Both the position numbers and the translations under genes were made by a program. Under the pieces are notes generated by a model that had not been told where the DNA came from, did no database searches, and saw nothing but the letters and a program-made list of their open reading frames with translations. A stretch of DNA of 25,084 bases. Origin: a virus. Of this stretch, positions 2,083 to 25,084 are shown one piece after another. Location: positions 1 through 25,084 of the IMG/VR virus record IMGVR_UViG_3300037184_000055. One strand, given 5' to 3'. Within the stretch, counting starts at the first letter, position 1. Each line of letters starts with the position of its first letter.

Positions 2083-2805
2083 TCAAACGGATAAAAGTTT
2101 TGGAGAAGGATTTTCCCCCCGCTTGAATTTATTCCAATCGGATTCCCAAATGTATTTCACTTCATACCCGAGAGATTTTACACGATTGAGATTGGTCATT
2201 GTTCTATCGTTAAGTTCTCTGTAGGTTATTTTTCTCTTGGGATGTAACTTTTCGGGTGGATATTTGTTAAGATTCCCATGCCAATAATCTCCAAGAAATT
2301 CGTAGATTGTGTTTGTTGTTGGGTCATATCCATCTACGGGTTTTTTCTTCCATTTTGGCAAATAATAGTTTCTCGTGGGAATGTTGTAATAATTCAGAAA
2401 CTCAATTTCTGGGTCTGAAATAATGTGTGTGCATTTTATACATCCCTTACCATATAAATGCTCGCTTGGGGATTGAAGGAAGTCTCCGTGTATTGGGCAT
2501 TTTATTATAATTTTGTCAAAACACCCAATATAGTTGCTTTTAGAATAATCATACTTGAATTCGTGGATTGCGTTGGCTTTACATACGAACTCGGGGGTAG
2601 TATATTTTTTGTTCCCTGAACATGACGGACACCCCTTTCCGCTATAAATATGATTATTGGGGGTTTGCTCAAATCTACCATGCAGCGCACATATGATTTT
2701 TACTTTTTGGCGGGCCGATGAGTACATGATTTCGGAATAGTCGTATGTGTCTCCATGTATTTCTTTTGCTCTGGAGATAAACTCAGCGGTCGTTAGTTTT
2801 CTCAT
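2083..2805 (-). CDS. DUF723-repeat / Vsr-like homing endonuclease
   Basis: 240 residues from the ATG at 2805. Two tandem zinc-binding repeats, residues about 5-65 and 69-127, each follow the pattern F..+A..IH..KYDYS..Y....K..I.C..HG.F.Q.P..H...GKGC..C, which is the DUF723-type arrangement. The C-terminal part (about 156-225) has VDGYD (D158), IYEFLGDYWHGN (E169, D173, H176) and YEVKYIWESDW, matching the Vsr/EDxHD-like nucleases found in phage homing endonucleases. It lies antisense between two plus-strand structural-type genes, as expected for a mobile endonuclease gene. The frame stays open upstream to a TTG at 3036, but residues there do not look like this family, while a different frame there encodes a plausible endonuclease N-terminus; hence the ATG at 2805. 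The family is clear; activity is unknown. Confidence 0.85.
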   Translation of the reverse strand: MRKLTTAEFISRAKEIHGDTYDYSEIMYSSARQKVKIICALHGRFEQTPNNHIYSGKGCPSCSGNKKYTTPEFVCKANAIHEFKYDYSKSNYIGCFDKIIIKCPIHGDFLQSPSEHLYGKGCIKCTHIISDPEIEFLNYYNIPTRNYYLPKWKKKPVDGYDPTTNTIYEFLGDYWHGNLNKYPPEKLHPKRKITYRELNDRTMTNLNRVKSLGYEVKYIWESDWNKFKRGENPSPKLLSV

Positions 2806-2938
2806 ATCTGTTTTTCCAGTAGTAATCCATATTTGCGTTCTTAATGCGTTCAGCGTTCCGATAATACCAATTTCGTTTTCTCTGTTTTTCGGCATTGTGC
2901 CGTTCCTCTTCGGTCTGATATACTTTATTTCTTCCCAT
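2783..2938 (-). CDS. Small ORF, possible detached N-terminal segment of the endonuclease
   Basis: A 51-residue ORF reading MGRNKVYQTEEERHNAEKQR and then basic, Tyr/Asn-rich helices (NWYYRNAERIKN, DYYWKNRYEK). This style of sequence is often the N-terminal arm of phage HNH/DUF723 endonucleases. It runs in another frame and its TGA (2783-2785) overlaps the ATG of the endonuclease (2805) by 23 nt. Either it is a separate, translationally coupled small protein, or a single frameshift has split a once continuous protein. The codon sense and composition are much better here than in the overlapping upstream extension of the endonuclease frame. Which alternative holds cannot be settled from one genome. 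Confidence 0.5.
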   Translation of the reverse strand: MGRNKVYQTEEERHNAEKQRKRNWYYRNAERIKNANMDYYWKNRYEKTNDR

Positions 2939-2951
2939 GTTGTTACATAGT

Positions 2952-2976
2952 AAGCGTCTAAATGAAAGCGTCTAAA
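2952..2976. repeat. 11-bp direct repeat, two copies
   Basis: AAGCGTCTAAA occurs at 2952-2962 and again at 2966-2976, separated by TGA. It lies just upstream (on the minus strand) of the small endonuclease-associated ORF. It could be an operator, a replication slippage product or a scar of insertion. Confidence 0.6.
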
Positions 2977-3049
2977 AAATGTGAAAATAATTTTGGAATT
3001 TTGCTGAGGAATCTCTATGTATTGGAAAGACAACAAGTAGATTACAATT

Positions 3050-4428: not shown

Positions 4429-7059
4429 ATGGCCGACATACCTCTATATCCAACTCCCGAGAACATGGATACTTTCCATGACTTCGTAAATTTACAGAAG
4501 GAAGTTCTCAATCTGCTTTTGTCTCAAAAGAAGGAATATGAGCAAATCGGTCGAATAAACCTTGATATTGAGAAACGGGTAGGTTTACGCCGACAGTCCG
4601 AGTCCAAAATGATGGATTTGATTCAGACCAAAATGATTGAAAACGAAGGATTGATGAGACTGAAGGCTAAAGCCACATCGGATACGGCTAAGGACTCCAT
4701 TGATCGTTTGCTTAAGGCTAATAAGAGAACTAGAGATGATACCAATCAGCTTCTTGCTATGTCCCGAGAGGCTAATACTATCGAAATGGACATGGCAAAA
4801 CGCAAGTACGACTATGAGCACCGGTACTTCACTTTAGCATCCACCCAAATGCAAAAGTTATTTGGATTCAAAGTTGAAGAATATGATTTGACCAAGAGTA
4901 TAGGAGAGGAGCTAATCAAGGTAGGAGTTCGGGGAGAGATGATTGCTTATACATGGGGTGGAATTATCATGATGCTTAAGGGAGCCTATGACCTTTTCAA
5001 TAAGTTTGATAAAGCAGCACAGACTTTCCGTATGTCAATGGGGATGACTCGTGTTGAGTCGGAAGTTATTCGAAAAGATGCACAGAGAATTGCCATTGAC
5101 TATATGGCAATGGGTGTAACCATCGAAGGAGTTTATAAGTCCTATCAGGCACTGGGCGGAGCGGTTGGTGGCGTTCACAATGTTTCAAAGTCTCTGGTAG
5201 AAACCGTGGCCATCATGGCGGCTCAACTCGGGGTTTCCGAAGAAATAAGTACTCGGTTTCTTCGTAACATGGCAGTCATTTCCAAGAGTTCGATGGAATC
5301 CCAGACCTCTTCGATGTATATTGCTCAATATATGGCAGCGGCGGCTGGGGTTCCTTTTCCACAAGTAATGGAAGATGTTTCCAAGGCTACCGCTCAAACA
5401 TTATTGTTAATGTCCAGAGTTCCGAATGTAGTATTGCGATCTACCATTGAACTGAGACGCATGGGGACTTCTATGAATGATGCCGCAAGGTCTGGTGCTC
5501 ATGTTCTTGATTTCACCCAAAGTATTAACGAAGAAATGGAGGCGTCAGTATTATTGGGTACGTCTATTAACATGCAGCGTGTCCGTGAGTTAGCATATAG
5601 TAGAAATTTAGAGGGTTCTACCAAAGAGATTTTGAGATTGGCACAGCAACATGGCTTTGCGACAAAAATGGATTACTTCCAGATGAAGGCATTTGCTCAA
5701 ATGACTGGATTCTCGGTGGATCAATTGCTCAGCATGGTACAAACCAGTGAGCAGATTAATGCAATAAGACGCCGTGGAACTCCCGAACAGCAGACACAGT
5801 TGAAACTTTACGAACAGATGCGTCAGGAAAACGAAGCAGCAGCGAAAGCAAAAGCCATAGATAGTAGTGCTCTTCTACGCACCATGAATAATCAGACTCG
5901 TTTAGTGGCTATATCATCTAAGTGGAATCAAATTCTAGCACGAGTACAGGAATACTTGTTTCCGATTATTGACAAAATGTTTAGTGGAATTATATGGGCA
6001 ATGGACATTGGAAAATATCTTGCGCCGGTTATTGGGCAGATGTACACCGCTTATACAATTGGTGGTGATATTGTTGAGTCTCTCATAAAAATTAGTAATT
6101 ACACAGGACGATGGGGTGGAATGCTGAGACCTATACATGTGTTTTTCAGAGTTCTTGCCCTGAATGTTAGTCGTGTATGGCACAGTGTACTTGCAATTGG
6201 GGACGGACTTTCTAGCTTTGGAAAGTATTTTAAGTTTCTTAAAGGATTAGAATCTCTTAAAGTTATTACAGCAGTTGGGAAATCACTGGGAAAGTTTACA
6301 GTAATACTTAACGTTATTTTTGCAGTGTGGAACGTACTTAAAGCGATTTTTCATGGCGCAAAAAATTTCGTCGAAGGATTTATGATGCTATTTGAGAAGG
6401 GAAAATTTCTGGCGGGTTTAGGTAAGATGCTCCACGGATTAATTCAGATTACCATTGGCTCCATTTTGGGTGCTCTTGAAGGTGTTTTTGGGTTTGTCGT
6501 TGATATTCCTATTCTTTTATTAAAAGGACTGGGATGGGCATTCGGGGGTGCAACAAAGAAATTTGCAGATATGGTATCCGGGTGGTGGGATTCAATTAAA
6601 GATTGGCTTGGGTTTTCACCTTCCAAAGTTGGATTGCTAATTGTTAAAGGAATTACATCAATTGGAGGAATGTTATTCCGTGCTCTTACTTCACCGTTTA
6701 GAATGGCTTTCTCTTGGATAGTGGATAAATTTTCGCATATGGGTCGTTCTATAAAGGGGTTGTTTGGTAAGGGAAACTCAGTCGAGAAGAAAGCGACTGC
6801 GGCATATATTCCAGCCGTCACAGTAACTCCTAATGGCACAAAGATTGAGACGGCTAAGGAAAAGACCAAGCGTGCTGGTGAGAAGGAAAAGGAAGAGTTG
6901 CTTCTTATGACCGAGGAGACGGGATGCAAGATGGTTGCCTTGCTGGAGAAGATTCTCGCCAAAGATACGAATGTCAATATGGATGGTCAGTTACTTAGTG
7001 TCCACCTTGCTCGTCAGACCGAGTTTCGTGGAGGTTACGGAGTAAACAAGGTAGCGTAA
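4429..7059 (+). CDS. Tail tape measure protein
   Basis: 876 residues, long and mostly helical. Residues 1-150 are strongly charged and coiled-coil-like. A hydrophobic segment lies near 170-190. The middle part has the phage tape measure pattern: ETVAIMAAQLGVSEE, later ASVLLGTSINMQRVRELAYS, and YFQMKAFAQMTGFSVDQLL. A glycine-rich hydrophobic region follows (about 590-720), as expected for the segment thought to meet or cross the host membrane during DNA ejection. The protein normally sets tail tube length; at roughly 1.5 angstrom per residue this would be a tail of about 130 nm. It lies between the gp26/gp51-like hub factors and large baseplate proteins, which fits. Start at ATG 4429 has no Shine-Dalgarno. 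Confidence 0.85.
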   Translation: MADIPLYPTPENMDTFHDFVNLQKEVLNLLLSQKKEYEQIGRINLDIEKRVGLRRQSESKMMDLIQTKMIENEGLMRLKAKATSDTAKDSIDRLLKANKRTRDDTNQLLAMSREANTIEMDMAKRKYDYEHRYFTLASTQMQKLFGFKVEEYDLTKSIGEELIKVGVRGEMIAYTWGGIIMMLKGAYDLFNKFDKAAQTFRMSMGMTRVESEVIRKDAQRIAIDYMAMGVTIEGVYKSYQALGGAVGGVHNVSKSLVETVAIMAAQLGVSEEISTRFLRNMAVISKSSMESQTSSMYIAQYMAAAAGVPFPQVMEDVSKATAQTLLLMSRVPNVVLRSTIELRRMGTSMNDAARSGAHVLDFTQSINEEMEASVLLGTSINMQRVRELAYSRNLEGSTKEILRLAQQHGFATKMDYFQMKAFAQMTGFSVDQLLSMVQTSEQINAIRRRGTPEQQTQLKLYEQMRQENEAAAKAKAIDSSALLRTMNNQTRLVAISSKWNQILARVQEYLFPIIDKMFSGIIWAMDIGKYLAPVIGQMYTAYTIGGDIVESLIKISNYTGRWGGMLRPIHVFFRVLALNVSRVWHSVLAIGDGLSSFGKYFKFLKGLESLKVITAVGKSLGKFTVILNVIFAVWNVLKAIFHGAKNFVEGFMMLFEKGKFLAGLGKMLHGLIQITIGSILGALEGVFGFVVDIPILLLKGLGWAFGGATKKFADMVSGWWDSIKDWLGFSPSKVGLLIVKGITSIGGMLFRALTSPFRMAFSWIVDKFSHMGRSIKGLFGKGNSVEKKATAAYIPAVTVTPNGTKIETAKEKTKRAGEKEKEELLLMTEETGCKMVALLEKILAKDTNVNMDGQLLSVHLARQTEFRGGYGVNKVA

Positions 7060-7067
7060 TATTTATA
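7059..7067 (+). promoter_or_regulatory. Start-adjacent ATATTTATA element
   Basis: ATATTTATA begins on the last base of the tape measure stop region and ends 3 nt before the next ATG (7071). There is no Shine-Dalgarno at usual spacing. It is part of the recurrent set described for 789-797. Confidence 0.4.
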
Positions 7068-7070
7068 CCT

Positions 7071-9434
7071 ATGGCACAAGCACATTTTGAACCAACCTGG
7101 GCGTTAATACAAAGGCCCGATGGCTATCCAACAGGACCAGCCGTTGGTAAGCCGGAAATGATTTTGCAGTATAACGGCAATACGAATTCTTTGTATCATC
7201 GCCTGTCGCCATACTCTAATTACAGTCAAGGTCTAATTTCTTGGGGAGACGAACCGTATTACTACATTTATCCTGACCAAGCCAAGGATTTCCCACAGTC
7301 ATTGAAGAGATATGATTCACACATATTTGCTCCCGGCTCTGGAATTATTGATGTAATCCGAACTACCAAGTTTCTGGTATCGGGGCGTGGTGTTGGGTTT
7401 CTTGCCACACAATTGCTTCTTCAAACGGCGTCACCATACAATGAGAGACGTATTTATAACCCGACCTCACCTATTGTTGCGGCTGGGTTGACTCTCGCTC
7501 TTGGGTCCGTAAGACCGGAGCGGTCGTTTGATACTTCGGCGGGGCTGGTGGGTATCGCAACGACTTTGTTGGGGGGATTGGGAAGCACCATATTTGGTCC
7601 TCCAAAGACTAATCCAGTTTCGGGGACGGCATATGACATTAATTCTAATGCTTTGCCAAATGCTACAAAAACATTTGGTGCTAAGGGAAATCTTCGTGCA
7701 GGAACAGCTCTCCGAGGACTGGCAAATCTTCAATCCGCCTGGCCTGGAACGACTAAATCAGGTGGGAGTTCATCGGGGTTTCTTTCTGCGGTGACAGGAA
7801 TGGTGACTTCTTTATTTCAGAATTTTATTCCTCAGACTCAGAAAAATATTCAGTTTCGAAGTGATGAAGGTGCTTATGGTATGATGATTGATAGTGGAAC
7901 TTCTAAATTTGGATACACAAATACGTTTGGTCTTTCGAGGGGATTCCGACAAAGATGGTTTGGGGGGGCACCGCTGACGACAGGAATCAGAAAAACTGGA
8001 CAGAATAATGCAGATCATGCAGGAATTCTGATTAACCAACCAAATGGTACACTAGATATTTTCAATCATCAATCCTATAGTTCATTAATAACTGGAACGG
8101 GTGGATTTATTAGAGTAGGATATGACATTCATGAGAGCACTAATCGTCTAAGACCCGGCATAAGATACGGCGATTCATTCGGATCGGGTGTAAATGACAA
8201 GGGGATTGATGGAGCAAATTATCAGGCTTCGGATCAGATGATAGTATGGGGGCAGTACTATGCCAATCCAAACAATGCATATAAAACCAAAGACCCAGAA
8301 TCGCAACGTGCCGCTGATACCAGAACTAAACTTACGGCAGTCTTGAATAAAATCAAGGCAGCAAGTGAAAATACCTATAAAGTTACGCCGGACGAGAACT
8401 CTGTTCTGCTGATGCAGGACTCGGTGAAATACAACTATGACCGGTTGTTTAATACCAGAAACAAGGGTGACGCCCCAAACAATTTCGCTCTTGGGTCGTT
8501 AGCAGCATATCGTAATTCTGGGGTGACGATGGTTAGTGATGAACTGAATAGTAGTAATTATTCAGTAGGTCTTCCCACCGCCGGAAAATTAGATACGATA
8601 AATATGTTGAATGTTTTAGATGAGAGTGAAGTAATAGACCCTCTCACGTCTGAATGGCAACCTTATGAGGATGATTTGATTGCGTTGTACTTCTACGATG
8701 TTGTTAACGAGAAGTACATCCCGTTCCGAGCAGCTATTAAGGGTATCTCGGAGGCTGGCAATGCATCGTGGGAAGAAATGCCGTTCATTGGTCGTGCTGA
8801 CAAAGTGTATTCCTATGGCGGATTTAATCGGAATCTCAGTATCAATCTTAAGGTTGTGATTAGCAGTATTGCCGAACTGGCTCCGACGTGGCAACGCATT
8901 AATTATATGATGACATCTTATAAACCAGCGAATTACACAAAAGCGGTGGGAGTCGTAGCAGGCGGAAACAATGCCTATGACCGATTCATGGTGCCCCCAA
9001 TGTTTATGCTTACGATGGGCGACTTGTATCGAGATCAACCAATACTTATTCAGGCCGTTACATTGACCGTTCCTGATGATGCTGCATGGGAAACGTACAA
9101 TGAGGATAATGTTGGTACAGGAAATTGGGGATACATGGCTAATCTTATTAAGTCGCCCAATGCTATGTTTGGTCAAGTTCCACGAGAAGTTGAACTTGGA
9201 TTCACAATGGTATTACTTGAAAAGGAACGTGCAGTTGTTGGCGGTGCTAATTTTGGTCATGCTCCACGAACCGAGGAATTTGTGGAATGGAACGATGATA
9301 CTGTTCCTAACAACAAGTCACTTAATCATTGGAATAAGAATTACGTCGTAAATGTAATTGACAATAAATCCCCCACTATTACCAGGGTAAACCATCGTGG
9401 ACAGACATATAGTGGTACACAAGGAACTGGATAA
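7071..9434 (+). CDS. Large baseplate / tail tube-junction structural protein
   Basis: 787 residues. The N-terminal part contains TTKFLVSGRGVGFLATQLLL, then YNPTSPIVAAGLTLALGS, a pattern seen in large phage baseplate or tube-initiator proteins (F..S..G..F...Q..LQ...P...R.YNP.S). The C-terminal third (about 520-710) has EEMPFIGRADKVYSYGGFNR, a run on fitting tube loops, and PPMFMLTMGDLYRDQPILIQ, again typical of phage tail hub or tube-junction domains. It directly follows the tape measure gene with an 11-bp gap and precedes the gp53-like gene, so it belongs to the baseplate/tail module. I place it in that module with confidence, but not to a named T4 protein; a gp48/gp54-like role is only a guess. 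Confidence 0.65.
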   Translation: MAQAHFEPTWALIQRPDGYPTGPAVGKPEMILQYNGNTNSLYHRLSPYSNYSQGLISWGDEPYYYIYPDQAKDFPQSLKRYDSHIFAPGSGIIDVIRTTKFLVSGRGVGFLATQLLLQTASPYNERRIYNPTSPIVAAGLTLALGSVRPERSFDTSAGLVGIATTLLGGLGSTIFGPPKTNPVSGTAYDINSNALPNATKTFGAKGNLRAGTALRGLANLQSAWPGTTKSGGSSSGFLSAVTGMVTSLFQNFIPQTQKNIQFRSDEGAYGMMIDSGTSKFGYTNTFGLSRGFRQRWFGGAPLTTGIRKTGQNNADHAGILINQPNGTLDIFNHQSYSSLITGTGGFIRVGYDIHESTNRLRPGIRYGDSFGSGVNDKGIDGANYQASDQMIVWGQYYANPNNAYKTKDPESQRAADTRTKLTAVLNKIKAASENTYKVTPDENSVLLMQDSVKYNYDRLFNTRNKGDAPNNFALGSLAAYRNSGVTMVSDELNSSNYSVGLPTAGKLDTINMLNVLDESEVIDPLTSEWQPYEDDLIALYFYDVVNEKYIPFRAAIKGISEAGNASWEEMPFIGRADKVYSYGGFNRNLSINLKVVISSIAELAPTWQRINYMMTSYKPANYTKAVGVVAGGNNAYDRFMVPPMFMLTMGDLYRDQPILIQAVTLTVPDDAAWETYNEDNVGTGNWGYMANLIKSPNAMFGQVPREVELGFTMVLLEKERAVVGGANFGHAPRTEEFVEWNDDTVPNNKSLNHWNKNYVVNVIDNKSPTITRVNHRGQTYSGTQGTG

Positions 9435-12309: not shown

Positions 12310-12315
12310 GGGTTG

Positions 12316-13665
12316 ATGATAGAGACGCTCTCAGACTTGACCCGTTTTCAACTGGAAAATCAACAAGGAGATTGGATTGTACATTCCGTGCCCATTTCTG
12401 ATAGTCACCCCGCTACTGCTCAGCCGAGTATTCTATTTATTCGTAATATAATCACAGGAAAGACTTATTACTATGCTTTTCATCACCCCGACTCCAAGCC
12501 ACAAATAGGTTCTGAAATGGTTCGGGGAATTCTCCAAATGAAGAATTGCAAATGGACACTCGACAAGAAAGCCTTTGACCAGTGTTACTGGAGAGTTCCT
12601 AATGTTTATGACGCCAATGCTCTTTCGTGGATGCGGACCAATGAGATTTTTGAACTTTCGGAGTATGAAACTTCCGCCCATTATCTTATTCGAAAGAATG
12701 CGTTGGAGCATGATTGTTTGAACCTTGTTATTCCGCTAATGAAGCACAAGGAGATGTTTGATGACTTGGCGGATGATCTTACGGAATTGGTGAAAGGGTA
12801 TAAACCCGATTTGCCGTTCATTCGTTTTAATGACCTTATCATTGGAACTCTTGGGGATTTGGAGAGGCAAGGTATTTGTGTGGATCGGAAATTATTCGTG
12901 GAACGCTACAAACAAGACCCCGGCATCACGGGTATTGTGTACAGTCAGTACAATGTTTATACCTCTACGGGGCGTCCGAGCAACCGATACGGGGGTGTGA
13001 ACTATGCCGCACTCAACCAGACTGACAGCACCCGAAAATGCTTTATCTCAAGACATGGTGAAAACGGGGCAGTCGTGGTGCTAGACTATACCGCTTTCCA
13101 TCCCCGAATTATCAGTCGGCTGGTCAAGTACGACGTTCCGATAACCACCGATGTTTATGAGTATTTAGCCAAGCTGTATTTCAACAAAAAGACGGTGGAC
13201 GAGACAGACATCAAAGAGGCTAAGAACCTCACTTTTCGGCAGTTTTATGGTGGAATAGAGGATAAGTACTCACATATCAAGTATTTTGCTTCCACCAAGG
13301 ACTTTATGACTGAACAGTGGGAGAACTTCAAGTCGAACGGATATGTTCTAACCCCGTTTTTTAAGCGCCAGATAACCGCCAAGCACGTTTCAGACCCCAA
13401 CCCATCCAAAGTATTCAATTATATTCTCCAAGCGACTGAGGGCGAATTGAGCATTCCCAAGGTCAAAGCTGTTTTGGAGTATTTGAGGGGATATAAGACT
13501 TGTGCGGTGCTTTATACATACGATGCTGTCCTTTTCGATTACTATAAGCCCGAGGGGATGGACCTTCTTAGGGACATTCAGAGGATTATGAGTTTTGAGG
13601 GACGCTTTCCAATGAAAGCGTATATGGGGGAGACGTATGATGACGTGAAGCAGATTGTTATCTGA
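12316..13665 (+). CDS. Divergent family A DNA polymerase without an evident proofreading domain
   Basis: 449 residues from ATG 12316. The C-terminal 240 residues carry the family A signature: YTSTGRPSNRYGGVNYAALN (215-234), motif A VVLDYTAFHPR (D257), motif B EAKNLTFRQFYGG (K303, F307, Y311), motif C VLYTYDAVLFDY (D403). Catalytic aspartates in A and C, the O-helix Lys and the tyrosine are kept. The position of the motif A Glu (E710 of E. coli Pol I, the steric gate) is His, and the Glu after the motif C Asp is Ala. The first 200 residues may be a worn-down exonuclease fold, but I see no DxE exonuclease motif. The length is well below that of Pol I. The gene has its own promoter, separate from the tail operon. 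Polymerase identity is clear; fidelity properties are inference. Confidence 0.85.
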   Translation: MIETLSDLTRFQLENQQGDWIVHSVPISDSHPATAQPSILFIRNIITGKTYYYAFHHPDSKPQIGSEMVRGILQMKNCKWTLDKKAFDQCYWRVPNVYDANALSWMRTNEIFELSEYETSAHYLIRKNALEHDCLNLVIPLMKHKEMFDDLADDLTELVKGYKPDLPFIRFNDLIIGTLGDLERQGICVDRKLFVERYKQDPGITGIVYSQYNVYTSTGRPSNRYGGVNYAALNQTDSTRKCFISRHGENGAVVVLDYTAFHPRIISRLVKYDVPITTDVYEYLAKLYFNKKTVDETDIKEAKNLTFRQFYGGIEDKYSHIKYFASTKDFMTEQWENFKSNGYVLTPFFKRQITAKHVSDPNPSKVFNYILQATEGELSIPKVKAVLEYLRGYKTCAVLYTYDAVLFDYYKPEGMDLLRDIQRIMSFEGRFPMKAYMGETYDDVKQIVI

Positions 13666-23740: not shown

Positions 23741-25084
23741 ATGGAAACCCCAACTAAGTTCGAAGACGTAAAAAAAGTTACTACCGAAGAATATTTCCAA
23801 GGCAACCAGTTCAGCATAGATGCGTTCAAAAAGAAGTACTCGATTACCCCCGAAGAGTCATACCCCCAAGCAGTTAAACGAGTTTGTGACTTTATAGCCT
23901 CTGTTGAATCTACCCAAGAACTACGAGATTATTGGAGTGCTCGATGGTTTGATGAAATCTATAACGATTGGTGGCACCCCTCGGGCGGCATCATGCAAGG
24001 TGCTGGCTCTGGTAGAAAGATTTCTTTAGCCAACTGTACCACTGTATCCCTCGGTGCCAAACGAGAGGATGAAGAGTGGGACAGCCTTGAAGCTATCGTC
24101 AAAAACGCCGCCTATACAATAGCCAAATGTGCTGCTTACCGACAGGGATTGGGAATAGATTTCAGTCGTCTCCGCCCAAACGGATGCAAAGTTCTAAATT
24201 CAGCCAACCAAAGCACTGGCGTAGTTCATTGGATGGAATTTGAGGACAAAATAGGATACTTTGTGGGTCAAAAAGGGCGTATTCCCGCCATGTTGTTCAG
24301 TATTTCCTGCGACCACCCCGATGTTGAAGAATTTATCCAAGTAAAGTCGGATTACACCAAGATTCAGAACGCTAACATTAGCGTTCAATGTACGGAAAAG
24401 TTCTATAAAGCCGTGGAAAACGACGAGGAATGGGAAATGACTTTCACTGTACCCGCCATCAAAAAAGGAGACAAAATTTATGTGGACGTGCATAGCATTG
24501 ATATGCATACCACGAAGGAAAAAGAGACTGGGCGTTATTATCGACTCGCCACACACGACCGTAAGAAGGAAGTTTTCTCCAAGTCAATCAAAGCTCGTAA
24601 GTTAATGGAACTGATTGCCAAAAATATGCATCAAAATGCAGAACCCGGTATTCAGAACATTGACATTGCCCGCAAGTATAGTAATTCAGATGCTCTGTAC
24701 AACGAGAAGGATGAGTATGATTCCAGAATATTGAGCACTAATGCTCCTCTTACGGGAGATACCCTGATTCCCACACCAAATGGTATTATTTCTATGGGAC
24801 AATTGTATGGTCAGTCCGAAGCAATAGTACTTAGTGATTCGATAGTAACTCTTCCCCCACAACTTATTGATCATAACAACACTAAGCAAGTATGGGGAAA
24901 ATATAATTTTCCAACTAAAACATTTCCTGTTCTAGCTAAGTTCAGAAAATATGAGAATCAGAAAGTATGGGAACTTAGACTAAATAACGGGCAAATGTTT
25001 AGATGTAACGGGGAGCATAAATGGCTAATAAACGGAGAAATGGTATCAACAAAAGATGTCAAGATTGGGGATAAACTATTCAAA
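23741..25084 (+). CDS. Ribonucleotide reductase catalytic subunit with an intein, probably class II (3' end outside window)
   Basis: 448 codons are present and the frame is still open at the window end. The N-extein is residues 1-335. It has no N-terminal ATP cone. Family motifs: GRKISLANCTTVSLG (C99), GLGIDFSRLRPNG, STGVVHWM, AMLFSISCDHPDVEEFIQVK, IQNANISVQCTEKFYKAVEN and, at the end, RILSTNA. The sequence resembles adenosylcobalamin-dependent (NrdJ) enzymes most, but a class I assignment is not excluded. It makes deoxynucleotides for phage DNA. After STNA, where reductases continue with the active-site Cys, the sequence switches to an intein. The start is ATG 23741, 107 bp after the helicase, without a clear Shine-Dalgarno. 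Confidence 0.85.
   Translation, partial: METPTKFEDVKKVTTEEYFQGNQFSIDAFKKKYSITPEESYPQAVKRVCDFIASVESTQELRDYWSARWFDEIYNDWWHPSGGIMQGAGSGRKISLANCTTVSLGAKREDEEWDSLEAIVKNAAYTIAKCAAYRQGLGIDFSRLRPNGCKVLNSANQSTGVVHWMEFEDKIGYFVGQKGRIPAMLFSISCDHPDVEEFIQVKSDYTKIQNANISVQCTEKFYKAVENDEEWEMTFTVPAIKKGDKIYVDVHSIDMHTTKEKETGRYYRLATHDRKKEVFSKSIKARKLMELIAKNMHQNAEPGIQNIDIARKYSNSDALYNEKDEYDSRILSTNAPLTGDTLIPTPNGIISMGQLYGQSEAIVLSDSIVTLPPQLIDHNNTKQVWGKYNFPTKTFPVLAKFRKYENQKVWELRLNNGQMFRCNGEHKWLINGEMVSTKDVKIGDKLFK
24746..25084 (+). mobile_element. Intein within the ribonucleotide reductase, Pro at position 1 (3' part outside window)
   Basis: It begins at codon 336: P-LTGDTLIPTPNGIISMGQL, a clear intein block A except that the first residue is Pro, not Cys or Ser. 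Block B is GQMFRCNGEHKWLI (His at intein position 91, Trp at 93). Typical inteins have a small or aliphatic residue two after the block B His; Trp here, with Pro1, is the mark of class 3 inteins, which start splicing from an internal Cys. STKDVKIGDKLF after it fits the usual splicing-domain strand. The insertion point, before the expected catalytic Cys, is a known favoured site in reductases. The C-terminal blocks and any homing endonuclease lie beyond the window. Confidence 0.85.

Follow-up and report, generated by a model that had tools for sequence, protein, structure and literature searches.

A Pro1 intein interrupts a phage ribonucleotide reductase before its radical cysteine and probably splices by a class 3-like route

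A linear 25,084-base fragment of a virus genome (IMG/VR record IMGVR_UViG_3300037184_000055, positions 1 to 25,084; hereafter the window) ends within an insertion in its ribonucleotide reductase gene. With a probability of roughly two in three, this insertion is a mobile intein that lies between STNA and the catalytic cysteine of the phage enzyme, has lost its first nucleophile and splices in a class 3-like manner, a reading that draws on the junction and block B of the window and on a complete homologue at the identical codon.

Genes of the window are T4-like and include those for a baseplate protein, a tape measure, a gp32-like SSB, UvsX, a 5'-3' exonuclease and a DnaB-like helicase. Reductase and intein share a single open reading frame (23741-25084, + strand; ...EYDSRILSTNA/PLTGDTLIPTPNG...FRCNGEHKWLINGEMVSTKDVKIGDKLFK), which is open at the contig end and has no stop codon. 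The N-extein (23741-24745, +), ending in STNA, consists of the first 335 residues of a phage reductase large subunit (NrdJ/NrdA-like), as identified by profile matches (Pfam PF02867, 1.4e-29; NrdJ_Z, 7e-38; PHROG 84, 3e-36). The frame reads on past STNA as PLTGDTLIPTPNGIISMGQL...FRCNGEHKWLINGEMVSTKDVKIGDKLFK for 113 intein codons (24746-25084, +), about the N-terminal third of the intein, and the contig stops upstream of blocks F and G. An earlier note on this DNA had placed the intein start at STNA/P and had read H-K-W, with Trp at B:12, in block B. Both observations hold: the in-frame start at position 24746 is a Pro codon (CCT, 24746-24748, +) replacing Cys or Ser, and block B is CNGEHKW (25004-25024, +), with His B:10 at 25016-25018 and Trp B:12 at 25022-25024. 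An in-frame stop, which the same note had named as evidence against an intein, is absent from all 113 codons. Two intein models match the insert weakly, below cut-off but correctly placed (TIGR01445, residues 2-93, 8.8e-4; PF14890, 1.9e-3), and its G+C content of 36%, against 44% in the adjacent extein, fits a recently acquired element.

The complete homologue is found in two nearly identical contigs, L042 and L044, which come from two metagenomes, represent one phage lineage and carry at the window's codon a 385-residue intein (in L042, GTNA/PLIGSTKIPT...LFCNGEHSWLVNGEMT...DVQDMYCAVVDGIHSFVANGCLSSN/CSEQYL). Residues 1-116 of the L042 intein show 48% identity to the part in the window and have Pro1, CNGEH and Trp B:12 in common with it. 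Read along its length, L042 has Pro1, CNGEHSW, a MYC motif containing Cys F:4, Ser G:5, Ser G:6 and an SSN end, with Ser as the penultimate residue and without THN, followed by Cys+1 in CSEQ. The F:4 assignment comes from an alignment with 38 other inteins, in which the MYC cysteine falls in the column that holds the F:4 Cys of the seven canonical class 3 inteins and the F:4 Asp of class 1 inteins; by homology at the same site, the window copy would also have Cys F:4. PF14890 matches L042 above cut-off over residues 13-383, and a LAGLIDADG_3 domain (8e-15) is present, a homing endonuclease that would spread the intein into empty sites.

L042 and L044 contain the sole complete Pro1 homologue. 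Viral contigs were scanned with the window intein, the L042 intein and the two aligned, and bacterial and archaeal genomes were scanned too; no further members were found, and therefore no longer copy of the window intein. The junction pattern STN[AP]/P-x-x-GDT matched 6 viral and 22 genome stretches, none of them a reductase. A sequence search of the PDB returned weak matches only, to gp41-1 (E 4.7e-4 for L042) and polymerase-type inteins, and the AlphaFold2 model of L042, built from a six-row alignment, was poor (pLDDT 47.9, pTM 0.34). The records that contain L042 and L044 (G027 and G029) are intein-rich, their helicase-like and portal-like genes being interrupted too.

The insertion point follows STNA and directly precedes the radical cysteine of the NrdJ/NrdA-like phage reductase, which by homology we take to be the thiyl-radical cysteine, C439 of E. 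coli NrdA. Among 44 distinct alleles of reductase relatives gathered by IMG/VR scans, the site is empty in 35, where STNACSEQ (or GTNACSEQ and similar) runs uninterrupted, including relatives 93-94% identical to the window reductase. Three alleles (window, L042 and L044) carry the Pro1 intein and one (L137) a Cys1 cis intein, while in five (L041, L043, L045, L145, L146) the inteins are split, begin with Cys1 and lie at STNAC/S, one codon further downstream; the split state was read directly in L041, L043 and L045 and is assumed for L145 and L146 from their like beginnings. The halves of the class 1 split intein in L043 and L045 are separated by what seems to be a free-standing gene. The insertion codon is common to L042/L044 and to other phages with class 1 inteins (L002, L003, L103 and L137). 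Judged by these alleles, the sequence after STNA is an insertion beyond chance, and its status is firm because close relatives are uninterrupted and a homologous intein occupies the identical codon in L042/L044. The features expected of an intein are there: the insert is in frame, contains splicing blocks and occupies a conserved position left empty in relatives, the full set of blocks being seen in L042 only.

A class 3-like route, through Cys F:4 and then Cys+1, is the most likely path of splicing, and is the best reading of the window intein because the same-site L042 has Cys F:4, a terminal Asn and CSEQ. Cys F:4 would attack the STNA/Pro1 bond, the N-extein would pass from Cys F:4 to Cys+1, and Asn would cyclise in the final step; for the window and L042 inteins alike, splicing and branch chemistry are predicted from sequence. 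Class 1 inteins have Cys, Ser or Thr at position 1, where the window, L042 and L044 have Pro; class 3 requires no nucleophile there, and this agrees with Pro1 in the window. Trp B:12, a class 3 residue that is not class-specific, occurs as HKW in the window and HSW in L042. The proposal that this is a class 3 intein thus stands in part: Pro1, Trp B:12 and, in L042, Cys F:4 speak for it, but the triad is Trp-Cys-Ser, Cys+1 is present, THN is lacking and the best trees place the intein elsewhere. Likewise, the downstream features that had been anticipated appear in L042 as Cys F:4, a terminal Asn and a C-extein starting with CSEQ, but G:5 is Ser, not Thr, and there is no penultimate His.

Relative to canonical class 3, L042 departs by Ser G:5, Ser G:6 and Cys+1, Ser or Thr being usual at +1. 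Mutation of Cys F:4 abolishes class 3 splicing, whereas that of Thr G:5 can have little effect (PMC5222942), so that Ser G:5 is tolerable; Thr G:5 deviates in 4.6% of class 3 inteins (PMC7891396). For Cys+1, Bvi IcmO was in 2016 the sole known case in class 3 (PMC5222942). AceL NrdHF, which has Ala1, Met at the Trp position and no His in block F or block G, splices by class 3 chemistry (PMC7891396).

The main chemical rival is class 2-like splicing, in which Cys+1 would directly attack the N-terminal junction without a block F branch. L042 shares with the class 2 KlbA inteins the lack of a position-1 nucleophile, Ser G:6 and Cys+1, but known class 2 inteins are KlbA orthologues, occur in a different host gene, have Ala1 and require Asp F:4 (PMC4031507), where L042 has Pro1 and Cys F:4, and this route is considered improbable. 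Still less probable is that a class 1 intein, having lost its nucleophile, is now inactive or capable of cleavage only. Ser can become Pro by one base change (TCT to CCT) and Trp B:12 occurs in class 1 inteins, but Pro1, intact frames, His B:10 and Trp B:12 have been kept in two diverged lineages, L042 retains Asn-Cys, and the reductase would be inactive unless the intein splices. Nonsynonymous change between the window and L042 intein parts is also low (0.34 differences per site, against 0.79, saturated, for synonymous sites), which indicates that both copies are under constraint. A sequencing or assembly artefact, suggested by the position of the intein at the very end of the record, is hardly credible, as the junction codon is the same as in L042/L044 and in the class 1 inteins L002, L003, L103 and L137; an error at Pro1 itself is unlikely because the homologue from two other metagenomes has the same residue, again encoded by CCT.

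Residue specificity was examined in a small, hand-picked set of 40 phage inteins, seven canonical class 3, two Pro1 and 31 Cys1/Ser1. Trp B:12 had been put forward as diagnostic of class 3, a view that does not survive its presence in 11 of the 31 Cys1/Ser1 inteins of this set, in agreement with a survey that counts Trp among the usual class 1 residues at B:12 (Hoffmann 2020, PMC7891396). Cys F:4 occurs in 12 of the same 31 and is telling only when combined with loss of nucleophile 1; the spacing from F:4 to the block F His (7 or 8) was dropped as a class marker, since class 1 inteins show both values. Eight of the 31 have the whole Trp-Cys-Thr triad while keeping Cys1. These reductase or NrdD inteins (Vibrio phages L103 and L104, Morganella phage MP1 L107, Thermobifida phage P318 L236, and L238, L239, L240 and L017) have Trp B:12, Cys F:4 and Cys+1 in common with L042, from which they differ by Cys1, Thr G:5 and Gly G:6. 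Since the canonical class 3 clade does not include them, possession of the triad may be insufficient to define the class. In L017 (IMGVR 3300009502_001060, 5128-7543), the reductase is 94% identical to that of the window over the shared part and carries three inteins, among them the Cys1 Trp-Cys-Thr intein, at a SLAN/C site, and one split after STNAC.

Canonical class 3 is taken here as the MP-Be DnaB, MchDnaB1 and phage TerL/RecB/helicase type (for example Anglerfish TerL L099, CN1A L162, Toto L164, KP13-16 L108 and DAC15 L167). These inteins likewise lack a position-1 nucleophile (Pro in Anglerfish) and have Trp B:12, Cys F:4 as in L042 and, in many, a LAGLIDADG endonuclease, but they combine Thr G:5, a THN end and Ser/Thr+1 where L042 has Ser G:5, SSN and Cys+1. 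That L042 is a true member of this monophyletic group, transferred to the reductase and since altered by drift at G:5, G:6 and +1, concerns descent rather than chemistry and is rather unlikely. In its favour, Pro1 and PLxxDTxxPTPNG resemble the TerL class 3 intein of Mycobacterium phage Anglerfish (55% over 20 residues), CNGEH(I)W also occurs in the KP13-16 helicase class 3 intein, and AU tests on the splicing domain do not reject grouping of the Pro1 pair with canonical class 3 (p 0.16 and 0.20). Against it, the seven canonical inteins group together with support and exclude the Pro1 pair even after removal of the diagnostic columns (99/95; 99/94), and the full-length tree pairs L042 with the ctwe8250 reductase intein, which has Ser1 and Asp F:4 (91/27 in the smaller set, 95/83 in the larger); on full length, a union of L042 with canonical class 3 gives a borderline p of 0.05 with the smaller set and is rejected with the larger at p 0.001. 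BLAST with L042 finds the ctwe8250 intein (1e-22) and then other reductase inteins, the best class 3 match (6e-6) covering mostly the endonuclease. The placement among class 1 and class 3 inteins that had been suggested as a check thus puts L042 outside canonical class 3 in the best trees, while the splicing domain taken by itself leaves the grouping unrejected; since the endonuclease may have a separate history, the splicing domain could still derive from canonical class 3.

By descent, the Pro1 intein looks like a reductase-site intein whose nucleophile has moved to F:4 rather than a canonical class 3 intein. The ctwe8250 intein (MW202615, L102), 27.6% identical to L042 over 333 amino acids, also precedes the radical Cys and has Trp B:12 and Cys+1, but with Ser1 and Asp F:4 it is an ordinary class 1 intein. 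A second origin of class 3-type splicing, in which class 1-lineage reductase inteins gained Cys F:4 with Cys1 or Ser1 still in place and then lost nucleophile 1 to yield the Pro1 Trp-Cys-Ser inteins of the window and L042, is entertained as a tentative reading, held at a little under even odds; reductase inteins with Cys F:4 that keep Cys1 are a plausible stepping stone. If true, it would contradict the published view of class 3 as monophyletic (PMC7664689; also PMC4031507) and the argument of Aranko, Iwai and colleagues that direct evolution of class 3 from class 1 was not possible, several simultaneous changes being needed (PMC7664689). The abundance of reductase inteins with both Cys1 and Cys F:4 would provide a stepwise path beyond the single graft experiment of that study, and the position of a class 3-like intein within the class 1 inteins of reductases bears on how class 3 arose.

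Already known are class 3 inteins (1701 in Hoffmann 2020, PMC7891396), Pro1, triads that deviate and the presence of a class 3 intein in the beta subunit of a reductase, so the suggestion that a reductase example widens the range of targets is not wholly new. The beta-subunit case, AceL NrdHF (PMC7891396), shares with L042 a phage reductase gene, a non-nucleophilic residue 1, an internal Cys, a deviant triad and the lack of a penultimate His; it is split, with Met-Cys-Thr and Ala1, whereas L042 is a cis intein of the large subunit with Trp-Cys-Ser and Pro1, the window copy being partial. New, as far as the accessible literature shows, are the location of a class 3-like intein in the large subunit, ahead of the radical cysteine, and the hint of its origin from among the class 1 inteins of reductases. 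With class 3-like chemistry at this position, the catalytic residue of the reductase would also serve as a splicing nucleophile.

Elsewhere in the window, an ORF at 2083-3036 (-), oriented opposite to its neighbours and matching treble-clef zinc-finger and DUF723 models, is perhaps a free-standing homing endonuclease, and 12313-13665 (+), where a weak and short hit to family A DNA polymerases (1e-5) stays below cut-off, may encode a polymerase that is split or reduced. Fractured genes that carry split inteins were also seen in Salmonella phage S16 uvsW (L096, 2311-5037), Lactobacillus phage CL2 terL (L097, 506-2733) and Listeria phage LIS04 terL (L098, 2501-4351), the pieces of which are annotated as separate or hypothetical genes.
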